A DNA stretch of 64,000 nucleotides from SAR92 clade bacterium H231 (GTDB taxonomy: Bacteria; Pseudomonadota; Gammaproteobacteria; Pseudomonadales; Porticoccaceae). Positions 30,367 to 39,373 of the stretch are shown here, one piece after another. Location of the stretch: the NCBI GenBank assembly GCA_025153775.1, contig JAOALC010000004.1, positions 310,001 through 374,000 of the forward strand, written 5' to 3'. Each line of letters begins with the position of its first letter. Position 1 is the stretch's first letter. A program made the translations under genes and the position numbers. A model generated the notes under the pieces. It ran no database searches and was not told where the DNA came from. It saw only the letters and a list, made by a program, of their open reading frames with translations.

Positions 30367-32117
30367 TTTCAAGAATCCGATCCCACTCCGTCAGGCTATA
30401 CTTAGCTACCTCCTAGTGCAGCTGCTTTACTTGTTATAGCTTCCGATCCCACTCCATCAGGCTATACTCTAGAGCGCATTGCAACCTACACTGCGGATGT
30501 TATAGCTTCCGATCCCACTCCGTCAGGCTATACTATGCCCCGCGCGGCTGCAGAGTTGCCTATGGTTATAGCTTCCGATCCCACTCCGTCAGGCTATACT
30601 CACTCATTAATGTGTCTCGTTGTTGTTTGTGTTATAGCTTCCGATCCCACTCCGTCAGGCTATACTGTCTTTGCCCGAGGCTCTTGCATCGCCATAGTTA
30701 TAGCTTCCGATCCCACTCCGTCAGGCTATACTTGCTTAGGAGAAAGTGATGCGCAAGAAATTGTTATAGCTTCCGATCCCACTCCGTCAGGCTATACTTG
30801 GGCGAATGGCTCATGGGCGGCCCAGAAGGTTATAGCTTCCGATCCCACTCCGTCAGGCTATACTCGCGAGGTTAAGTGGAGTGCGGAAGCGGAGGTTATA
30901 GCTTCCGATCCCACTCCGTCAGGCTATACTTTGGGCAATCTGCTCTAGCATGTCCCATTGGTTATAGCTTCCGATCCCACTCCGTCAGGCTATACTGGTT
31001 TCACGCAAACTCATAAGCGAGCGATAGTTATAGCTTCCGATCCCACTCCGTCAGGCTATACTCACAAGCTTCGTTAAGACGTTCCGCGAACGGTTATAGC
31101 TTCCGATCCCACTCCGTCAGGCTATACTTCTGCTACAACGAGTCAAACACAAGCGAAGGTTATAGCTTCCGATCCCACTCCGTCAGGCTATACTCGTCCA
31201 TTTTGTAGCCTCCTTCTTTTCATCGTTATAGCTTCCGATCCCACTCCGTCAGGCTATACTCGCTATAAATTTAATACCGCCACAAACATGGTTATAGCTT
31301 CCGATCCCACTCCGTCAGGCTATACTGCTAAACAGATCATCTAGCGTGTTTCTGCGGTTATAGCTTCCGATCCCACTCCGTCAGGCTATACTGCGTGCCG
31401 CCTGCACTCCATCTGGCCCGCGTTATAGCTTCCGATCCCACTCCGTCAGGCTATACTCTAATTGTCTAAGTTAAAGCTAAGGATAGGGTTATAGCTTCCG
31501 ATCCCACTCCGTCAGGCTATACTCAAAGGAACACGCAGATCGGGCAGCATACTGTTATAGCTTCCGATCCCACTCCGTCAGGCTATACTCGGCGCGCTGT
31601 TGCTATGGCTCGCCTTGGTGTTATAGCTTCCGATCCCACTCCGTCAGGCTATACTACCTGTAGCCGCTCATCTACATAGGTTTTTGTTATAGCTTCCGAT
31701 CCCACTCCGTCAGGCTATACTCCGCCAGAGTTTCTCAATGGCCTTGGCTTGGTTATAGCTTCCGATCCCACTCCGTCAGGCTATACTCGAAATTGGTGAA
31801 CTTATGACAAAAAGAATGTTATAGCTTCCGATCCCACTCCGTCAGGCTATACTAGCTCGCAAAACTTTGAGGTGACGATACCAGTTATAGCTTCCGATCC
31901 CACTCCGTCAGGCTATACTGTACTTGGTATGCATGCCTTAAAAAGATATGTTATAGCTTCCGATCCCACTCCGTCAGGCTATACTGCTTTGGTTCTGCAG
32001 CCACTTGAGACTGCAGTTATAGCTTCCGATCCCACTCCGTCAGGCTATACTAAGCTGGCATGGATATGCATACAGGGCTGCGTTATAGCTTCCGATCCCA
32101 CTCCGTCAGGCTATACT
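30367..32117 (+). CRISPR. Type II-C CRISPR array, 27 repeats, 26 spacers
   Basis: Repeats are 36 bp, beginning GTTATAGCTTCCGATCCC and ending CTCCGTCAGGCTATACT. Spacers are 30 bp except one of 29 bp (31393-31421). Repeats start at 30367, then every 66 bases from 30433 to 31357, then 31422 to 32082. The first repeat is degenerate in its 5' third (TTTCAAGAAT in place of GTTATAGCTT) and the second has one change (CCATCAG). All others are identical by eye. The decayed end is cas-distal, so the young end should be next to cas2. The crRNA sense is the + strand, because the anti-repeat of the tracrRNA also reads +. Repeat ends match a -10 box (TATACT), so each repeat may carry its own promoter as in Neisseria. 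Confidence 0.98.
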
Positions 32118-32120
32118 CCA

Positions 32121-32170
32121 TCACATGTAAGCCGCTGATTTTATTGTATAATTCAGCGGTTTACCTGTGA
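32121..32170. promoter_or_regulatory. Leader-side inverted repeat between array and cas2
   Basis: An 18-base inverted repeat (TCACATGTAAGCCGCTGA against TCAGCGGTTTACCTGTGA), with one mismatch and one G-T pair, starts four bases after the last repeat. The 14-base loop contains TATAAT. No T run follows on either strand, so it is not a classic terminator. It could be a leader recognition site for spacer insertion, or a transcript end structure. Confidence 0.6.
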
Positions 32171-32183
32171 AAACAATAATCAT

Positions 32184-32492
32184 TTATAGTAATACTAGCT
32201 GTTGAGCACTCACTTTATTCTCATGAATGGTCGGCTCACCAACCCAAAGTCGCATTCGAGAAAACTGTTTATCTGTGAGAACTAGAGTCCGAATAGACCC
32301 CTCGGGTGGGAGCTCCATTTCTAAGCGCTTTAGATGCTTCTCAACGTTGTCTAGACCATTACATAAACGACTATAAATGGAAAACTGCAACATATCGTAC
32401 CCATCTCGCAGTAGAAAGCTCCGAAATCTTGTGTAGTTTCTCCGATCAACCTTCTTAGTAACCGGCAAGTCGAAAAATACTATCAAACGCAT
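32184..32492 (-). CDS. cas2: CRISPR-associated endonuclease Cas2
   Basis: 102 residues from the chosen ATG (MRLIVFFDLPVTKK), which has GGAAG upstream; an in-frame ATG eight codons earlier has none. Ferredoxin-like Cas2 with the catalytic-region Asp in FFDLP and the type II block LPPEGSIRTLVLTDKQF. Cas2 forms the Cas1-Cas2 integrase that inserts new spacers. Closest in pattern to Cas2 of type II-C systems. It lies 36 bases after cas1. Confidence 0.95.
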   Translation of the reverse strand: MRLIVFFDLPVTKKVDRRNYTRFRSFLLRDGYDMLQFSIYSRLCNGLDNVEKHLKRLEMELPPEGSIRTLVLTDKQFSRMRLWVGEPTIHENKVSAQQLVLL

Positions 32493-32528
32493 AAATTTTA
32501 GCTTCCACGAGTGCATCTGATAGCTTTG

Positions 32529-33467
32529 TTAACTGAGCGATTTAAGAGACGGCGGAAATAGAGGCTCAGGAAGTGACAATCCAAAATCCTTGGATTTTAT
32601 GCATCGAACCAAACTCTTTACTGTAAGTCTCACTGCAGTTTGCAGCGTATGCTTTTGATTGTTTATCAACACTTGCAGCTGCAGGATTTGTGTAAGTGTT
32701 GCACGGTTTTCTTTGGTGAGCATCTTAGTGTCTGTGTTATCCAATGGGTCTTTCTCTGTCAGCTTCAACATTTGGATAGCCCAACTATCTAAAATTGCTC
32801 GGTAAGGCTCCAAAAGATCATCTGCAAGATTAAAGCTATTAAGCTCACTTGCATGATGGAGCCCTAAGGTTGGATGGAAACCATAAGAAACAAGCTCTCT
32901 GGCGATAGCGGCACGAATAATTGCATAACCGTAATTTAAAGCACTATTTATATAACCGCCATCATGACGCTTAAAGTCAGCAAAAAGGCTATCAAAATAT
33001 AATCGCGCAGCAGTAGCCTCGCAATTTCCAGCATCACCAGAAGTAACGCTGGCAGCGAGACGTTTTAGTCGATTAGTGCTTTTGAAATGCCTCCAATCAA
33101 GAATCAGGGCCTGATTTACTATCTTCTGTCTTACTATCTTTTGCCACAATCGTTTCTTAAATGGTGCACGCATAGCTATTTGCGAATGCAGCACAGGCAA
33201 TTGTCTACTATGCTGTGCCAGTGGCAACATAATTCCATTGGGGTGATGTTGCTCATCACAGGTAATTAACACAGTATTATTTTTCGCCAAACAGGACAAA
33301 AGACGGCTGGTTACAGTTGTTTTTAAACTTTCTAATGTAATGGAAGCTATATCCTCCAGCGGAACGGCCAAATTTTGGTCGTCTTGCCGACATAGAAGTT
33401 GTGAATTTTTAACCGAAAGATGGGCTGCCTCGGTTACCAGTAAATTATGCCAGGCCAAGTCTGGCAC
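32529..33467 (-). CDS. cas1: CRISPR-associated integrase Cas1
   Basis: 312 residues. N-terminal beta domain (WHNLLVTEAAHLSVKNSQL), then the helical catalytic domain with the metal-binding residues in GDAGNCEATAARLYF (Glu), LGLHHASELNSFNLADDLLEPYR (His and Glu/Asp). The start overlaps the cas9 stop by 23 bases, so translation is coupled. It pairs with Cas2 for spacer acquisition. No csn2 or cas4 is present, which is the defining feature of subtype II-C. Confidence 0.96.
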   Translation of the reverse strand: MPDLAWHNLLVTEAAHLSVKNSQLLCRQDDQNLAVPLEDIASITLESLKTTVTSRLLSCLAKNNTVLITCDEQHHPNGIMLPLAQHSRQLPVLHSQIAMRAPFKKRLWQKIVRQKIVNQALILDWRHFKSTNRLKRLAASVTSGDAGNCEATAARLYFDSLFADFKRHDGGYINSALNYGYAIIRAAIARELVSYGFHPTLGLHHASELNSFNLADDLLEPYRAILDSWAIQMLKLTEKDPLDNTDTKMLTKENRATLTQILQLQVLINNQKHTLQTAVRLTVKSLVRCIKSKDFGLSLPEPLFPPSLKSLS

Positions 33468-36400
33468 CCCCAGCTTTCACTCTATCAATAGAACCCAGAA
33501 CATCAACTTCATATTTATGAAAATATTCTAATCCCGTCTTAATCCCAATACCTTGTATTGTTTTTTCACCCTTTTTCCTCATCTTTAGAAGAGTGTCAGG
33601 TTTAACCCAATGATTGCTATTTAGCGGCAACGACCTATCATGCAAAGTAACGTTGATCGTGCCAGTTCGCCGGTGACATCCAGCATAGTAACCAAGCAAC
33701 TTGCCTTTAACCTTATGCTTGATTTCTATCAAATCGTTGCGGAAGAGGCTAAAGCAAAAGCTATAACTCTCATCCATAAATGGCCAATCTTTTTCCTGTC
33801 TTCCTTGGAAAATTGCATGGGATGGCAAACCTTTATTCACTCGATCTGCCACGTAGATCGGTACTAGATAATATTTACCATCTTTCTCGAACACGTCTGT
33901 CCTGATCATTTCAACTTGTTTGGCTATGCCCTTACTGACACTGACTCCCGCATTCATAGCGGCACTTAGTTTGATACTATGAACCCTCGGGGCGATACTC
34001 TCTCTCGCCCGTGCTTTGGCTCCTAACGGCATAAAAAATGGCACTTCAAAAGCTTTTTTACCTTTTCCATCGTGCTCCATTAAGCGAGATTTGAGTGCCT
34101 CATAAAGTGATTTATTTCGCTCTTTGTCATGCATATTTTCCAGGTTTGCGAGGGTAAGATCCGACAGCGGAGTTTTCACTGTTGCATATCCTTCGCTGAG
34201 ATACTTTGCTGATCTAATTGTCGCTTCGTGAGCTGATCCAGCAATTTTCCGCGAGGGCATGCGCGAGACAAAAACCTTATTTTCGACATACTCTCTAACC
34301 TGCCGACTGAAATCATCCCAGGGTTGTGGCAGCTGAATCCTCCGATTCACCTGGAAAGGGGTCGACGCAACTTCACCTGTATGTGCATCAACAAGCTCTT
34401 CACCCTCGTCATCAGCACCATCACTTGCCCAGAGTTCCTGGCGACGTGAGGCATCTGATAACTGCTTAACCATACTGCGTGTAATACCGGCCACTAGTAA
34501 GGCATCCACTGCATGGTGTAAATCGCTTTCATTTCGATCCTTCAGCAAACCCCATCTTACGCGCAGATAACTAGTTAAAATACCATTGGACGTTTGCACA
34601 GGCTGCCTATCATCACCGGCAAGCTCAAGATTCTGCTCGATAAAATTTTTAAGATAACGAGCAATATAGCTGGTGTCATTACAGTTACGCTCTCTGAATA
34701 CCTGAGCATCCTTATCATCTAGACTTTCCTTAAGTAATCGCCAGCGTTTTGGGTAAGGGTAATGAGCAACTTCTGCTTTAAAACGTTGCCAATTCCTATG
34801 ATTTGCATCCTCTGCCGCAATATACTCAAACGGAGTGCGATCACCCTTGTGCCGATTTTCTGCAGTTAGGACAAGTACCTTATTGTTAAGGCTGTCGTCA
34901 TAGGTCCTACTCCAAGGCAATATATGGTCGATATCTACATAACCAGACTCTATTAGCCTGTTGCTGTCTATTGCGGTTCCCGAGTATGGACAACGGCCAT
35001 TTTGAGATTTATATAACCTAAATTTGAGCAAATCATGCCCATTAGGTGCAGTTTTATAGAGAGAAATAAAGTGCTGTTTTGCTTTCTCTTTTTGGCTGCG
35101 AAAGTCACCCTGTGCCTTAATGATTTCACGCCGTTCTTTAGAAGATTTCGCCACATCACGAGCCAGCTCAATATGCACACGCTCCGGTGTTCCATGTTTA
35201 CGAATAATCGCGTTAATAACTTTGCGAGCTTGAGTTAACGCCCGGAATACAACGGGATTTCGAATGTCATCTAGAGGAATTAGAGGTAACAGCTGTTGTT
35301 TATTACTATCTAGTGGACGGCGATGGTCTTTAAAGACGGCCGCACAAGCTTCATCGTATCTCTGACCATCTAGCATCAAGGGCAACAGTTTTTTTACAGC
35401 TGTAAGTGATAGATTTATAAATTGACTAAATCCATCCAGCGGCAATAAAGCATCGATGATATTTTGCGATAATCCTAGAGCCTCCAGTTCGCGCTGGCGA
35501 TTGTTATCTGTCTTCCAGCAAGTCAAAGCCTCCGCAATGCTATCTAACAACTCCGGATTTCCAGTTAGATTATTCCATTCAGTTTTCCCACAGTTTTTTT
35601 CAATAGCTGCTCGCAACCTATGAAATCCCTTAATCTCCAAAAATATCTGCGCCTCAGGATCTTTTCCTTTTTTTTCAGCGGCGTAATAATCTAAGCCAAC
35701 AAATCGTACATTATCGGCAATATCTAACTTTTTGCGTATCTGCGCATAGGTTACTTTAAGGTTTTTGAAGCCTAACGCCATCAATGCTTGTTTTTGCTCA
35801 GCGCTGAGATGAAATCTTCCTCTGCCCTCCTCACTAATAGTCAGATTGTTACACTTTGAGACAGACACGAAACACTCAGCACTATAACTTAACTTAGGCG
35901 CTCGCCTTTGGTCAGGTTCAAAAGTACAGAAACCTCGCATTCTATTTATCTGAGCACCGTCATCATAAGAGCGCTGAGAGGAAAATATCTTGATAAACTC
36001 AGCCTGAAAATTCACATCAGCATCCGAATTTCCTAAGTTTCGTTGCCGTTCGAAAAGAGTCTCAATCTCTTGGACAAGTAAATCCCTACTAATCGTATGA
36101 GCATATGATGTTGGATGATTTCGTTTTTTATTAGAAAATTTTATATCCTTATAAAACATCTCACCTACAGTCTTGTACTTCTTTTCCTCGAACAGTTGCG
36201 TATTTTCAGCCACACCAGCCAAAAGCTTACCCATATCCTTATCGTCAAATTCACTCTTTCTGTTGGATTTAAAGCCGCGCCGACCAGCAATATGAAAGAG
36301 AGCACGAGCCCATTCATCGTTAGTTAAACGGCGGAAAAGAGCGTCATATCGAAGCAGCCAAGGTGACAAGGTGTTTTTGGTTGTAGAAAATACAATATCC

Positions 36401-36654
36401 CTGTTTATCTCAGTAATGAGCCCTACTTCGACAAATAAGTTTTTGATTCTATGCAATCTATGTTGACGCCGCCGAAGTCTTCGCCTCGATGACCTGGCAA
36501 GCCTGCGAGGCAATGCCAATGATGCACCAGTCTTAGGTGTCTCGGCCTTGTTAAAAATGCGCACACCTGCACCTAAGATTTCCTTCTGCTGAATATCTAT
36601 GACGCCCCAGCCTATAGATGCTATACCAACGTCAATTCCGATAATTTTTGACAT
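33445..36654 (-). CDS. cas9: Type II-C Cas9 endonuclease
   Basis: RNA-guided DNA endonuclease, 1069 residues, in the size range of compact II-C Cas9 such as NmeCas9 (1082). RuvC-I with Asp8 (IIGIDVGIAS); arginine-rich bridge helix about 48-70; recognition lobe about 75-465; RuvC-II with Glu496 (VHIELARD); HNH about 545-615 with Asp576, His577 and Asn600 (DIDHILPWSRT); RuvC-III with His714 and Asp717 (DLHHAVDALL); wedge and PAM-interacting region about 800-1069, including GKYYLVPIYVAD like NmeCas9. All catalytic residues are present, so it should be active. The start has AAAAGGAG upstream. First gene of cas9-cas1-cas2. The gene looks more A/T-rich than the flanking housekeeping genes, consistent with transfer. 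Confidence 0.97.
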   Translation of the reverse strand: MSKIIGIDVGIASIGWGVIDIQQKEILGAGVRIFNKAETPKTGASLALPRRLARSSRRRLRRRQHRLHRIKNLFVEVGLITEINRDIVFSTTKNTLSPWLLRYDALFRRLTNDEWARALFHIAGRRGFKSNRKSEFDDKDMGKLLAGVAENTQLFEEKKYKTVGEMFYKDIKFSNKKRNHPTSYAHTISRDLLVQEIETLFERQRNLGNSDADVNFQAEFIKIFSSQRSYDDGAQINRMRGFCTFEPDQRRAPKLSYSAECFVSVSKCNNLTISEEGRGRFHLSAEQKQALMALGFKNLKVTYAQIRKKLDIADNVRFVGLDYYAAEKKGKDPEAQIFLEIKGFHRLRAAIEKNCGKTEWNNLTGNPELLDSIAEALTCWKTDNNRQRELEALGLSQNIIDALLPLDGFSQFINLSLTAVKKLLPLMLDGQRYDEACAAVFKDHRRPLDSNKQQLLPLIPLDDIRNPVVFRALTQARKVINAIIRKHGTPERVHIELARDVAKSSKERREIIKAQGDFRSQKEKAKQHFISLYKTAPNGHDLLKFRLYKSQNGRCPYSGTAIDSNRLIESGYVDIDHILPWSRTYDDSLNNKVLVLTAENRHKGDRTPFEYIAAEDANHRNWQRFKAEVAHYPYPKRWRLLKESLDDKDAQVFRERNCNDTSYIARYLKNFIEQNLELAGDDRQPVQTSNGILTSYLRVRWGLLKDRNESDLHHAVDALLVAGITRSMVKQLSDASRRQELWASDGADDEGEELVDAHTGEVASTPFQVNRRIQLPQPWDDFSRQVREYVENKVFVSRMPSRKIAGSAHEATIRSAKYLSEGYATVKTPLSDLTLANLENMHDKERNKSLYEALKSRLMEHDGKGKKAFEVPFFMPLGAKARARESIAPRVHSIKLSAAMNAGVSVSKGIAKQVEMIRTDVFEKDGKYYLVPIYVADRVNKGLPSHAIFQGRQEKDWPFMDESYSFCFSLFRNDLIEIKHKVKGKLLGYYAGCHRRTGTINVTLHDRSLPLNSNHWVKPDTLLKMRKKGEKTIQGIGIKTGLEYFHKYEVDVLGSIDRVKAGGARLGLA

Positions 36655-36670
36655 AAAAACTCCTTTTAAT

Positions 36671-36699
36671 TTGTCGTTACGGATTTCTTCTGCTACGTT
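36671..36699 (+). promoter_or_regulatory. Putative tracrRNA promoter
   Basis: TTGTCG and an extended -10 (TGC then TACGTT) with 17 bases between the hexamers, about 12 bases before the anti-repeat. Each hexamer matches the consensus only half, so this is tentative. It overlaps the 5' leader of cas9 on the other strand. Confidence 0.4.
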
Positions 36700-36705
36700 T
36701 AAGTA

Positions 36706-36800
36706 GCGGATGTAGCCTGACGGAGTGGGATTCGTTGCTGTAAAAAGGTTTTATACCGCAAGGTATCCCCACCTTCGGGTGGGGTATCCTCTTTAAGATA
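36706..36800 (+). ncRNA. tracrRNA of the type II-C system
   Basis: Anti-repeat at 36711-36743. Bases 36716-36731 pair perfectly with the inner repeat (16 bp, CCTGACGGAGTGGGAT), then a bulge (TCGTT against TTCCG), then a 7-bp lower stem GCTGTAA with one G-U. Downstream are a hairpin ATACC-GCAA-GGTAT (36753-36766) and CCCCACC-TTCG-GGTGGGG (36767-36784), followed by TATCCTCTTT as a weak terminator; a further weak ATCCT/AGGAT stem follows. The CCGCAA loop region resembles that of Neisseria tracrRNA. Ends are approximate. It is transcribed away from cas9, on the same strand as the array. Confidence 0.88.
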
Positions 36801-36901: not shown

Positions 36902-37378
36902 TCAGTCTCCACAAACTCTATTCCTCTCTATAATCACCGCCGGGTCCCGACTCCCCAACGCCGCGGCAATCGCTAAGTTGCACTCCGCCTTTGCCTTCTC
37001 GGCCTTATCCATCGCACTAGCCTCAGAAACACGCGCAATAGTCGGCTGATAGGTCACCGCCGCATTGCAGTACATATCTTTGATTTTGGTATGGCGCCAG
37101 TGCGCACTGGGCTTTTTGGATAGCTGTGTGCACAACTCTGCAAAGAGCCTTTTGGCGGTAAGGGTGCAGTGGGAGTAACGGCTGAGATCAGATTGATAGG
37201 GCAAACAGACAGTTTTGTCTTTGACTCGCCACATCTGGTATTGGAAGGGGATACTTACTGCCTGATAGTCAATCACCACCGCTTTGACTTCGGTGCCGAA
37301 GCTATCTGTCATCTTTTTGTGGACTATATTTTGTACCGCATCCACATAGGCGGAAAAAACAAACGAAATGGGATCCAT
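36902..37378 (-). CDS. Uncharacterised protein upstream of the tracrRNA/cas9 region
   Basis: 158 residues, not recognised. Start placed at ATG with AAGGA seven bases upstream; an earlier in-frame start adds nine residues. No signal peptide or membrane helix. It has four cysteines (TVCLPY, SHCTL, ELCTQL, DMYCNA), a basic middle (about 95-110, KKPSAHWRHTKIKD) and an Ala/Glu helical C-terminus. Same strand as the cas genes but separated from cas9 by the tracrRNA region, so membership in the CRISPR system is not shown. Confidence 0.6.
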   Translation of the reverse strand: MDPISFVFSAYVDAVQNIVHKKMTDSFGTEVKAVVIDYQAVSIPFQYQMWRVKDKTVCLPYQSDLSRYSHCTLTAKRLFAELCTQLSKKPSAHWRHTKIKDMYCNAAVTYQPTIARVSEASAMDKAEKAKAECNLAIAAALGSRDPAVIIERNRVCGD

Positions 37379-37540
37379 AACCTGTTCCTTCAGATCAACA
37401 TCCAATCAAGCCAGCTTCATGCTAGCCTACTAACTCCCCGCTTGTTACCGCGTACCGCATAAATCCTTTTATATTAAAAATAACCATAGACAACATTTCA
37501 CCAGCGTGCCGGTTTATTTATTTATAAACGCCAAATAAAC

Positions 37541-37789: not shown

Positions 37790-37975
37790 AACCTGAACAA
37801 CCACGGCATCTCGCTCACCAAATTTGTTGATTTAGAGTGAAAAAAGCCAGCATTACAAACCATAAATGGTTTTTAATGGTTGTTAAATATACCTAATCAA
37901 GGCTAAACAAGGTTGTATTATGTACATTCCAAGTATAATATTGACCAAAGAACAGCGCTATCTGTAGGCAGGCTA

Positions 37976-39373
37976 ATGATGAAAAAGGCATTAGAACGAC
38001 TAGAAATCAACTACTTAAAAAACTGGGCAACTGAGTCCAAGCGAAAGCCAATCGTAATAAGAGGCGCCAGGCAGGTCGGCAAGTCGACATTGGTACGTGA
38101 GTTTGCCCGACTGAACGACTATTCACTGGTAGAAATCAACTTTGAACGCAACCCCGAATACCGCGAAGCTTTCACAAGTAGAGATCCAGCCCTAATACTA
38201 ACGACCCTTAAATTACTGACTGGGCAGAGTATTGAAGCAGGCTCAACCCTGTTGTTTCTGGATGAGATTCAAGCCGCCCCGGAAGCTTTACTGACACTGC
38301 GCTACTTCCATGAAGAAAAGCCCGCGTTACATTTAATCGCAGCAGGATCTCTGTTGGAGTTCACCTTGGCTGAAGCACAGTTTTCTATGCCGGTTGGCCG
38401 GGTGGCGTACTTGCATTTAGGACCAATGCACTTTGAAGACTTCCTTGAAGCAATGGGTCATCCAGAATTATCCGCTTTGATTCGCAGCATCTCACTCGCG
38501 GACCTTAGCAATAAGCCAATACCAAGGCCTGTTCACGACAAACTTCTCAGCTTACTTCGCCAATACTGGGTGGTTGGCGGCCTTCCTGAAGCCATTGCTA
38601 CCTATGCACAATCAGGCGATTTTTCCCAAGTCGCCCGCGTTCAGCACAGTATTCTTGCCACTTATCGTGATGACTTTAACAAATACAGCCGCGGAAGTTT
38701 AAAAGGTCGAGTGCAGCTAGTCTTTGATCAATTGCCTGTAGTGACCGGACAAAAGTTTAAATATGCACAGGTAAGCAAAGACCATAAGGCCGCAGAGTTG
38801 GCCGCGGCGCTAGACCAGTTATGCATGGCTCGTGTTGCTCACAGGGTTTACCACACCTCAGCAAACGGTGTCCCACTGGGTGCCGAAGCTAACAAGAAAT
38901 TCTTCAAAACAGTTTATTTGGATGTTGGTTTAACCTGCGCGGCCCTTCGTCTCAATATTCTCGATCTAAACAAAAAGGATTTAACCCTAATCAACAATGG
39001 TGCAATTGCCGAGCAGTTCATTGGTCAGCACCTGCTGTACAGCGGCCCCTTTTATGAAACACCCGCACTGCATTACTGGGTTCGGGAAGCTAAAAGTGCA
39101 GCAGCAGAAATTGATTACCTAATAACTTCAGGGCAGGAAATTGTGCCCATTGAAATTAAGGCGGGGACTATGGGGTCGCTCAAATCACTGCATCAGTTTT
39201 TAAAAGAAAAACAGCGAGGGTTTGGGCTTAGGTTTAATGCCGACGTTCCCAGCTTATTAAGTAGCACCACAACCTTAACCGATACAACGAGTATACAATT
39301 TGATTTGCTGTCTCTACCGCTCTATATGGTAGGCCAAGGGCGGCGATTGGTTCATACTTATTTTGATCGCTGA
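37976..39373 (+). CDS. DUF4143-type AAA ATPase
   Basis: 465 residues from ATG at 37976 (MMKKALERLEINYLKNW), preceded by an AGG-containing site; the frame is open 21 codons further up. N-terminal AAA_14 domain with Walker A GARQVGKST (about residue 32) and Walker B LLFLDEIQ; C-terminal DUF4143 nuclease-like fold (about 240-440) with the IDYLI...PIEIKAG block, a PD-(D/E)XK-type pattern. Function of these proteins is unclear; they are widespread and often horizontally acquired. It is the only plus-strand gene between 30 kb and the window end, and lies between a dead and an intact copy of the same dehydrogenase, which suggests an inserted gene. Confidence 0.85.
   Translation: MMKKALERLEINYLKNWATESKRKPIVIRGARQVGKSTLVREFARLNDYSLVEINFERNPEYREAFTSRDPALILTTLKLLTGQSIEAGSTLLFLDEIQAAPEALLTLRYFHEEKPALHLIAAGSLLEFTLAEAQFSMPVGRVAYLHLGPMHFEDFLEAMGHPELSALIRSISLADLSNKPIPRPVHDKLLSLLRQYWVVGGLPEAIATYAQSGDFSQVARVQHSILATYRDDFNKYSRGSLKGRVQLVFDQLPVVTGQKFKYAQVSKDHKAAELAAALDQLCMARVAHRVYHTSANGVPLGAEANKKFFKTVYLDVGLTCAALRLNILDLNKKDLTLINNGAIAEQFIGQHLLYSGPFYETPALHYWVREAKSAAAEIDYLITSGQEIVPIEIKAGTMGSLKSLHQFLKEKQRGFGLRFNADVPSLLSSTTTLTDTTSIQFDLLSLPLYMVGQGRRLVHTYFDR

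Follow-up and report, generated by a model that had tools for sequence, protein, structure and literature searches.

The 64,000-nucleotide (nt) stretch of the SAR92 clade bacterium H231 genome analysed here (contig JAOALC010000004.1, positions 310,001 to 374,000; hereafter the window) carries a complete type II-C CRISPR (clustered regularly interspaced short palindromic repeats)-Cas9 locus, composed of an array, a leader, cas2, cas1, cas9 and an opposite-strand trans-activating CRISPR RNA (tracrRNA). Taken as a whole, the locus is best explained as an adaptive immune system of the Nme1Cas9 branch that is very probably in working order. Gene content, catalytic residues, repeats, a match to the own genome and leader positions are seen directly, the repeat-tracrRNA duplex and the hairpins are computed, and from these we infer transcription, protospacer-adjacent motif (PAM), cleavage, adaptation and the job of a leader hairpin. 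In the mechanism that we propose, each CRISPR RNA (crRNA) would most likely be started by a promoter of its own repeat and read toward the leader, because every repeat ends in a -10-like TATACT; the crRNA would pair with the tracrRNA, Cas9 would cut matching DNA next to a 3' PAM predicted to start with N4R, and Cas1-Cas2 would insert new spacers on the cas2 side of the array. The first repeat, mutated where the tracrRNA would pair, would have retained its promoter-like end, as in reported II-C arrays. RNA fired outward by the promoter of the last repeat, which would otherwise run antisense through cas2-cas1-cas9, would meet a stem-loop at a locked position in the leader that most likely stops or caps it. 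A first-pass annotation made from the DNA letters had read the locus correctly and overlooked two elements, the self-targeting spacer 24 and the leader stem-loop, which are the parts worth following. In window coordinates, the locus comprises:

30367..32117, + strand: CRISPR array of 27 repeats and 26 spacers, with the crRNA sense on the + strand
32118..32183, + strand: leader, 66 nt from the last repeat to the end of cas2
32184..32516, - strand: cas2 (TIGR01573, 7.7e-21; PF09827; PADLOC Cas2_II)
32529..33467, - strand: cas1, type II / NMENI, with a GTG start (TIGR03639, 3.8e-87; PADLOC Cas1_II, 2.2e-103)
33445..36654, - strand: cas9, 1069 residues, with its catalytic residues and Nme1Cas9 as best solved relative (TIGR01865, 4.8e-235)
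36713..36795, + strand, ends approximate: predicted tracrRNA, with an anti-repeat (36713-36743), a short stem, a hairpin (36767-36784) and a T-rich tail

The type II profile scores of the three cas genes lie far over the curated cut-offs, with PADLOC concurring, and the cas1 and cas9 reading frames share 23 nt. Every part that the first-pass annotation had listed for a complete II-C locus with a compact Cas9 was recovered in its place through open reading frames (ORFs), profiles, repeats and anti-repeat. Its further claim, that Csn2 and Cas4 are absent, is borne out at the level of the locus: NCBIfam, Pfam and PADLOC scans of the three neighbouring ORFs gave neither csn2 nor cas4 (the remainder of the genome was not searched). 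The locus is a further example of a well-known system type, and its Cas9 a divergent compact orthologue.

All seven residues previously named as the intact RuvC and HNH catalytic set (D8, E496, D576, H577, N600, H714 and D717) are present. In the alignment of 86 Cas9 sequences that also underlies our tree (window included, L157 left out), E496, H577, N600, H714 and D717 are identical in 86/86 sequences and D8 in 81/86, with gaps in the other five. Among solved structures, Nme1Cas9 is the best relative both by sequence (about 39% identity) and by fold, where it ranks first (E-value 4.7e-79, 39% identity), and the window Cas9 belongs to the Nme1Cas9 branch. A Pasteurella multocida relative is 40.1% identical. 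While earlier scans with the single Cas9 as query had returned no relative from genome contigs and none from viral contigs, an alignment-based query later found 357 Cas9 relatives among named genomes, and the 80 kept of these lie at 37-46% identity. The nearest genome relative found, at 46-47% identity and also the nearest tip of the tree, is the Cas9 of an uncultured proteobacterium (contig CAINBI010000163.1, L082); even so, the window Cas9 sits on a long branch, 1.46 substitutions per site from it. The two share a His at the PAM-reading position, but no array was detected in the 6.2 kb contig of the relative. None of these identities amounts to a tight grouping with a characterised orthologue.

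Three of the four Nme1Cas9 PAM contacts are kept here, with Q981, H1024 and T1027 corresponding to Q950, H994 and T997, and N1029 to T999. A His at the 1024 position has been linked to a purine (A or G) as the fifth PAM base (PMC9433092) and, because this PAM-reading His is conserved, we predict by analogy a 3' PAM that starts with N4R. With the best Cas9 match in sequence and fold and three of four PAM contacts in common, the Neisseria II-C systems are the natural point of comparison; Neisseria bergeri (L093) also shares 36-nt repeats of the same kind, a 66-nt spacing and a crRNA sense opposite to the cas genes. What separates the window from the Nme1Cas9 systems is, besides the Cas9 identity of only about 39% and the Thr in place of N1029, the end of the repeat, which is TATACT here and TACAAT there. 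PpCas9 of Pasteurella pneumotropica is likewise a compact II-C Cas9, and the NNNNRTT published as its PAM agrees with the sequence flanking the self-target described below (PMC7708072); this agreement concerns the PAM and comes from one site. The locus adds a divergent compact Cas9 orthologue with a predicted N4R PAM.

In the array, 27 repeats, each 36 nt long, alternate with 26 spacers, which measure 30 nt except for one of 29 nt. The repeat unit is identical in 25 of its 27 copies, far beyond chance; the second repeat has 1 mismatch and the first has 5, all within its first 10 nt. TATACT closes all 27 repeats. Two elements of the array bear on its transcription:

30367..30402, + strand: first (oldest, 'extra') repeat, degenerate at its 5' end, its 3' half intact with the -10-like TATACT
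32112..32117, + strand: TATACT, the -10-like hexamer that closes the last repeat and faces the leader and cas2, a putative promoter element by comparison with reported II-C repeat promoters (PMC12080349)

The array sense is assigned to the + strand on the grounds of the repeat sequence and of its predicted pairing with an anti-repeat that is itself on the + strand, as is the terminator-like hairpin behind it (7 pairs, followed by the T-rich tail). Located upstream of cas9, the anti-repeat is predicted to pair over almost the whole repeat, at -52.7 kcal/mol, and the first repeat to form a weaker duplex with it, at -44.2 kcal/mol; an Rfam scan of the window returned no family at cut-off. II-C arrays are reported to carry a promoter in each repeat and to receive spacers at the last repeat (PMC12080349), and it is on analogy with them that repeat promoters are proposed here. 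The II-C acquisition side is the cas2 side (PMC12080349, PMC6008519) and, because the degenerate repeats lie at the opposite end, we place the leader at the cas2 end, so that 32118-32183 would be where new spacers enter. This geometry is general in our sample: read in crRNA sense, the array has its 3' end next to the cas genes in 74/74 cases with a callable sense, the window and its congener G789 included. The sample started from 104 loci, of which 23 had no detected array and 1 an odd repeat, leaving 80, and 6 more were dropped as their sense was unclear by the repeat-start rule. G789 is, besides the own genome, the only one of 50 genomes of the genus in which a search with the natural array found an array. 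Its first repeat has 10 mismatches, 9 of them within the first 11 nt, and in both genomes the first repeat is thus mutated near its 5' end and keeps a promoter-like end, as described for the mutated extra repeat of II-C arrays (Feussner et al. 2025, PMC12080349). Unlike the present analysis, the available text of that study does not treat a leader-side stem-loop.

Within the leader, two elements stand out:

32121..32170, + strand: predicted stem-loop covering nt 4-53 of the leader, with 19 pairs, -26.2 kcal/mol, z-score -7.7 on 60 nt
32129..32130, + strand: AA at nt 12-13 of the leader, where conservation among relatives is highest

Folding of 32118-32168 gives -21.2 kcal/mol (z-score -6.3), and the centre of the stem-loop lies about 28 nt beyond the last repeat. 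The leader of G789 (L052) holds a similarly strong hairpin (z-score -9.2) of different sequence. Across 62 leaders, retained after removal of similar ones, A is found at nt 13 in 59 and at nt 12 in 47, while no position exceeds 0.23 bits on the far sides of the arrays (44 of which are long enough). Dyads are found in 35/52 Nme-like and 2/10 distant leaders, compared with 6/44 far sides and 1/310 shuffles, and of the 37 centres 22 fall at nt 28, 29 between nt 26 and 30, and 8 elsewhere. Folding energy tells the same story, with z-scores of -3 or below in 34/43 leaders and 10/43 far sides.

The mismatches in these dyads carry information on the molecule that folds. In the 35 dyads counted (17/52 were dropped for a weak score, and the axis was searched between nt 24 and 33 only), 26 mismatches are G-U and 7 are A-C in array sense (binomial p = 0.0013), with a G-U excess in 17 loci and an A-C excess in 3. 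The observed G-U share of 0.79 compares with 0.55 expected from random re-pairing of the arms and is reached in 0/1000 trials. Because G-U exceeds A-C, where a DNA dyad would give equal numbers, the leader sequences suggest that the stem-loop is read as RNA in array sense. The nine far-side dyads, read outward and therefore in the opposite sense, have 0 G-U and 5 A-C, which points the same way once turned into array sense, though the numbers are very small. The stem-loop would stop transcription fired outward by the last repeat's promoter.

Whether this describes a general terminal device of Nme-like II-C arrays, an RNA stem-loop with its axis about 28 nt past the last repeat beside a near-invariant A13, is a tentative proposal, which we hold to be somewhat likelier wrong than right. 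If true, it would solve a problem specific to II-C arrays, in which the last repeat's promoter has no spacer behind it and points at cas genes that run toward it; the leader would be the place where new spacers land and would also stop the last promoter, mirroring the extra-repeat problem at the other end. It would also explain how II-C arrays that have a promoter per repeat keep their own cas genes from being transcribed in antisense, and would give II-C adaptation work a defined leader landmark. Held with similar reserve is the alternative that the stem-loop is a DNA element for adaptation, a dyad anchored at A13 that Cas1-Cas2 or else a bending protein would recognise. The fixed distance to the integration junction speaks for it, as do the roughly half of the stems that have no U-run and the distant group (11 leaders, that of G789 among them), in which A12 and A13 are kept in 11/11, T19 in 11 and G20 in 10, though only 2 of the 10 distant leaders scored for dyads have one; the 26 G-U to 7 A-C imbalance in array sense is, on the other hand, not something that a DNA dyad predicts. 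The persistence of A13 in distant leaders mostly lacking a dyad makes it likely that a separate DNA signal for adaptation is also present.

Precedents for leader structures exist. The palindrome in the II-C leader of Riemerella anatipestifer (PMC5006608) is likewise an inverted repeat beside cas2; it concerns one species, and the available text describes neither a fixed position across species nor a link to repeat promoters. Leader-repeat hairpins that limit unwanted array RNA are reported for II-A (PMC12080349) and Cas13 systems (PMC13187072), but these sit where the transcribed array begins and involve pairing with the repeat, whereas the hairpin in the window lies past the array end and pairs within itself. 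Flavobacterium II-C leaders have poly-A and poly-T stretches, and their array transcripts run toward the leader (PMC8092290); a study of II-A leaders makes, in its available text, no mention of II-C (PMC5382924). Among titles and the beginnings of abstracts, no position-locked II-C leader stem-loop was described, a search that left most subscription papers outside its scope, so that novelty is uncertain.

Several results weigh against a working locus or against parts of the mechanism proposed for it. The structure model of Cas9 has a mean predicted local distance difference test (pLDDT) score of 79.2 and a predicted template modelling (pTM) score of 0.53, and Foldseek TM-scores are near 0.4, so that the ranking alone was used. 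A sigma-70 promoter scan lists no repeat (7 sites, compared with 11.7 expected in shuffles), and the best promoter-like site of the region (10/12) is on the minus strand at 32171-32143, in the leader and overlapping the stem-loop, from where transcription would enter the array in the direction opposite to that of the crRNAs. The mutated first repeat of G789 is not predicted to form a weaker duplex with the anti-repeat of the window (-50.7 kcal/mol, compared with -49.7 for the G789 consensus); the window anti-repeat was used as the own tracrRNA of G789 was not found. Related leaders share ancestry and are not independent samples, which makes the p-value above a guide only, and a U-run follows only 25/49 stems of at least 10 pairs, those of the window and G789 not among them. 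No phage or plasmid protospacer was found for the spacers among phages, plasmids and viral contigs. Finally, a perfect self-match that is tolerated could mean a silent or inhibited system, or a different PAM.

This self-match belongs to the third spacer from the leader, or new, end:

31920..31949, + strand: spacer 24, self-targeting, 30/30 identical to G000:C1:387194-387223 of the own genome (E-value 8.9e-9)

The target lies inside an alpha/beta-hydrolase gene (Pfam) that is matched at an E-value of 1e-30 or below in 2/50 genomes of the genus, the own included, the other being a 46% relative; because only these two match, the gene is, judging from the genomes, accessory. The 3' flank of the target site, CCTGATTG, carries ATTG at PAM positions 5-8, and hence A at position 5, and ATT is compatible with the NNNNRTT of PpCas9 (PMC7708072). 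Compared with an N4GATT PAM, the Q, H and T contacts are kept and N1029 is replaced by Thr, and the sole protospacer reads ATTG at positions 5-8. A single site proves nothing on the PAM, as R is found at position 5 by chance half the time. The remaining 25 spacers have no own-genome match at an E-value of 0.1 or below (6/7 first-look candidates scored). Self-targeting spacers are familiar, with several explanations, and include host-derived spacers in Campylobacter II-C systems (PMC6990116); with its perfect self-target, the otherwise intact locus lends itself to a test of how self-targeting is tolerated.

An alternative reading, that the locus is intact in sequence yet silent or inhibited in the cell, for instance by an anti-CRISPR or for lack of expression, would account for the tolerated 30/30 match with its A at position 5 and its ATT flank, also compatible with the PpCas9 motif, and would sit well with the absence of most of cas9 from the G789 assembly. 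We nonetheless regard it as unlikely, at about one chance in several: cas genes, repeats and tracrRNA region show no decay, and the true PAM, for which the R at position 5 is a coin-toss, may exclude the spacer 24 site. That the self-match is harmless or only apparent, either through a PAM wrong for cleavage or through an assembly that mixes a population, with spacer and target in different cells, we consider evenly poised between true and false. One protospacer alone does not fix the PAM, and cells may differ in carriage of an accessory target gene; a crude mixture, however, is at odds with an assembly of 7 contigs with 97.79% completeness and 0.11% contamination. The one perfect match to an own gene might also be taken for a sign that the array works in gene regulation rather than defence and is directed at the hydrolase gene. 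This is very improbable, as pairing over 30/30 positions would favour cutting over silencing, the nuclease residues are intact and the 25 other spacers are without own-genome matches. Regulation at the RNA level through spacer 24 was rejected, since its crRNA has the same sense as the hydrolase mRNA and cannot pair with it.

Because no phage or plasmid protospacer emerged, it is from the sequence of the locus that we infer its probable role in immunity. The window array gave one chance-level match among phages and none among plasmids, and the G789 array two chance-level matches among phages. Exact 24-nt seeds of spacers 26 and 25 had no match in viral contigs; 16-nt seeds of spacers 23 and 22 matched 11 and at least 120 stretches, respectively, and were rejected as protospacers, with full-spacer identities of at best 21/30 and 23/30. 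From the at least 120 stretches 80 were taken as loci, making 91 viral loci in all with which spacers were compared, and the other 22 spacers, compared with only these 91 loci, yielded no protospacer. Weak matches in congeners and in the order were likewise set aside as chance-like one by one; the best ungapped ones are 25/30 for a G789 spacer and 22/30 for spacer 26, the latter being one sequence that occurs in two congeners. As a separate observation, spacer 22 (31788-31817) can be read as ELMTKR(M), which resembles an FMTKRMN motif in 12/22 frame-open seed matches among the 80 loci in viral contigs. This motif may be that of a phage terminase, which we note as a lead only.

The second locus of the genus, that of G789, occupies the same site beside a helicase gene, with helicase, array, cas2 and cas1 in the same order and 16 other spacers, 15 of them distinct. 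This weakens the idea of a unique recent import, though the array is confined to two of the 50 genomes. Only the last 285 residues of its Cas9 remain and no other Cas9 piece is found in the assembly, which is 91% complete; about 21 kb of the window (34300-55688) have no counterpart at that point. The truncation may be a real loss or a mis-assembly, which can be read equally from the assembly. At the remnant itself (L052, 3354-4833, on G789:C71), the cas9 end is fused to a truncated frame that looks by eye like a glutamine amidotransferase, by deletion or mis-assembly. In the array on the same contig (L044, 1616-1711), two adjacent spacers are identical and each of the repeats preceding them departs from the consensus at 1 base, a pattern like that left by a recent duplication. 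By whole-genome search, and with G789 outside the set of 55, Cas9 was found in 0/55 other relatives, in 10/390 genomes of the order and in 29/369 of the class, with the own genome included in the figures for order and class.

Around the locus, a reading frame of 167 residues next to the tracrRNA (36902-37405) matched no family in NCBIfam, Pfam or PADLOC. In the congener genomes, short elements beside genes that look by eye like FecR and a TonB receptor (L053, 4805-4891 and 6104-6160) recur many times. Adjoining the CRISPR locus in the window, an ATPase of the AAA_14/DUF4143 type (37913-39373) matches the PADLOC candidate defence family PDC-S01 (2.5e-150).

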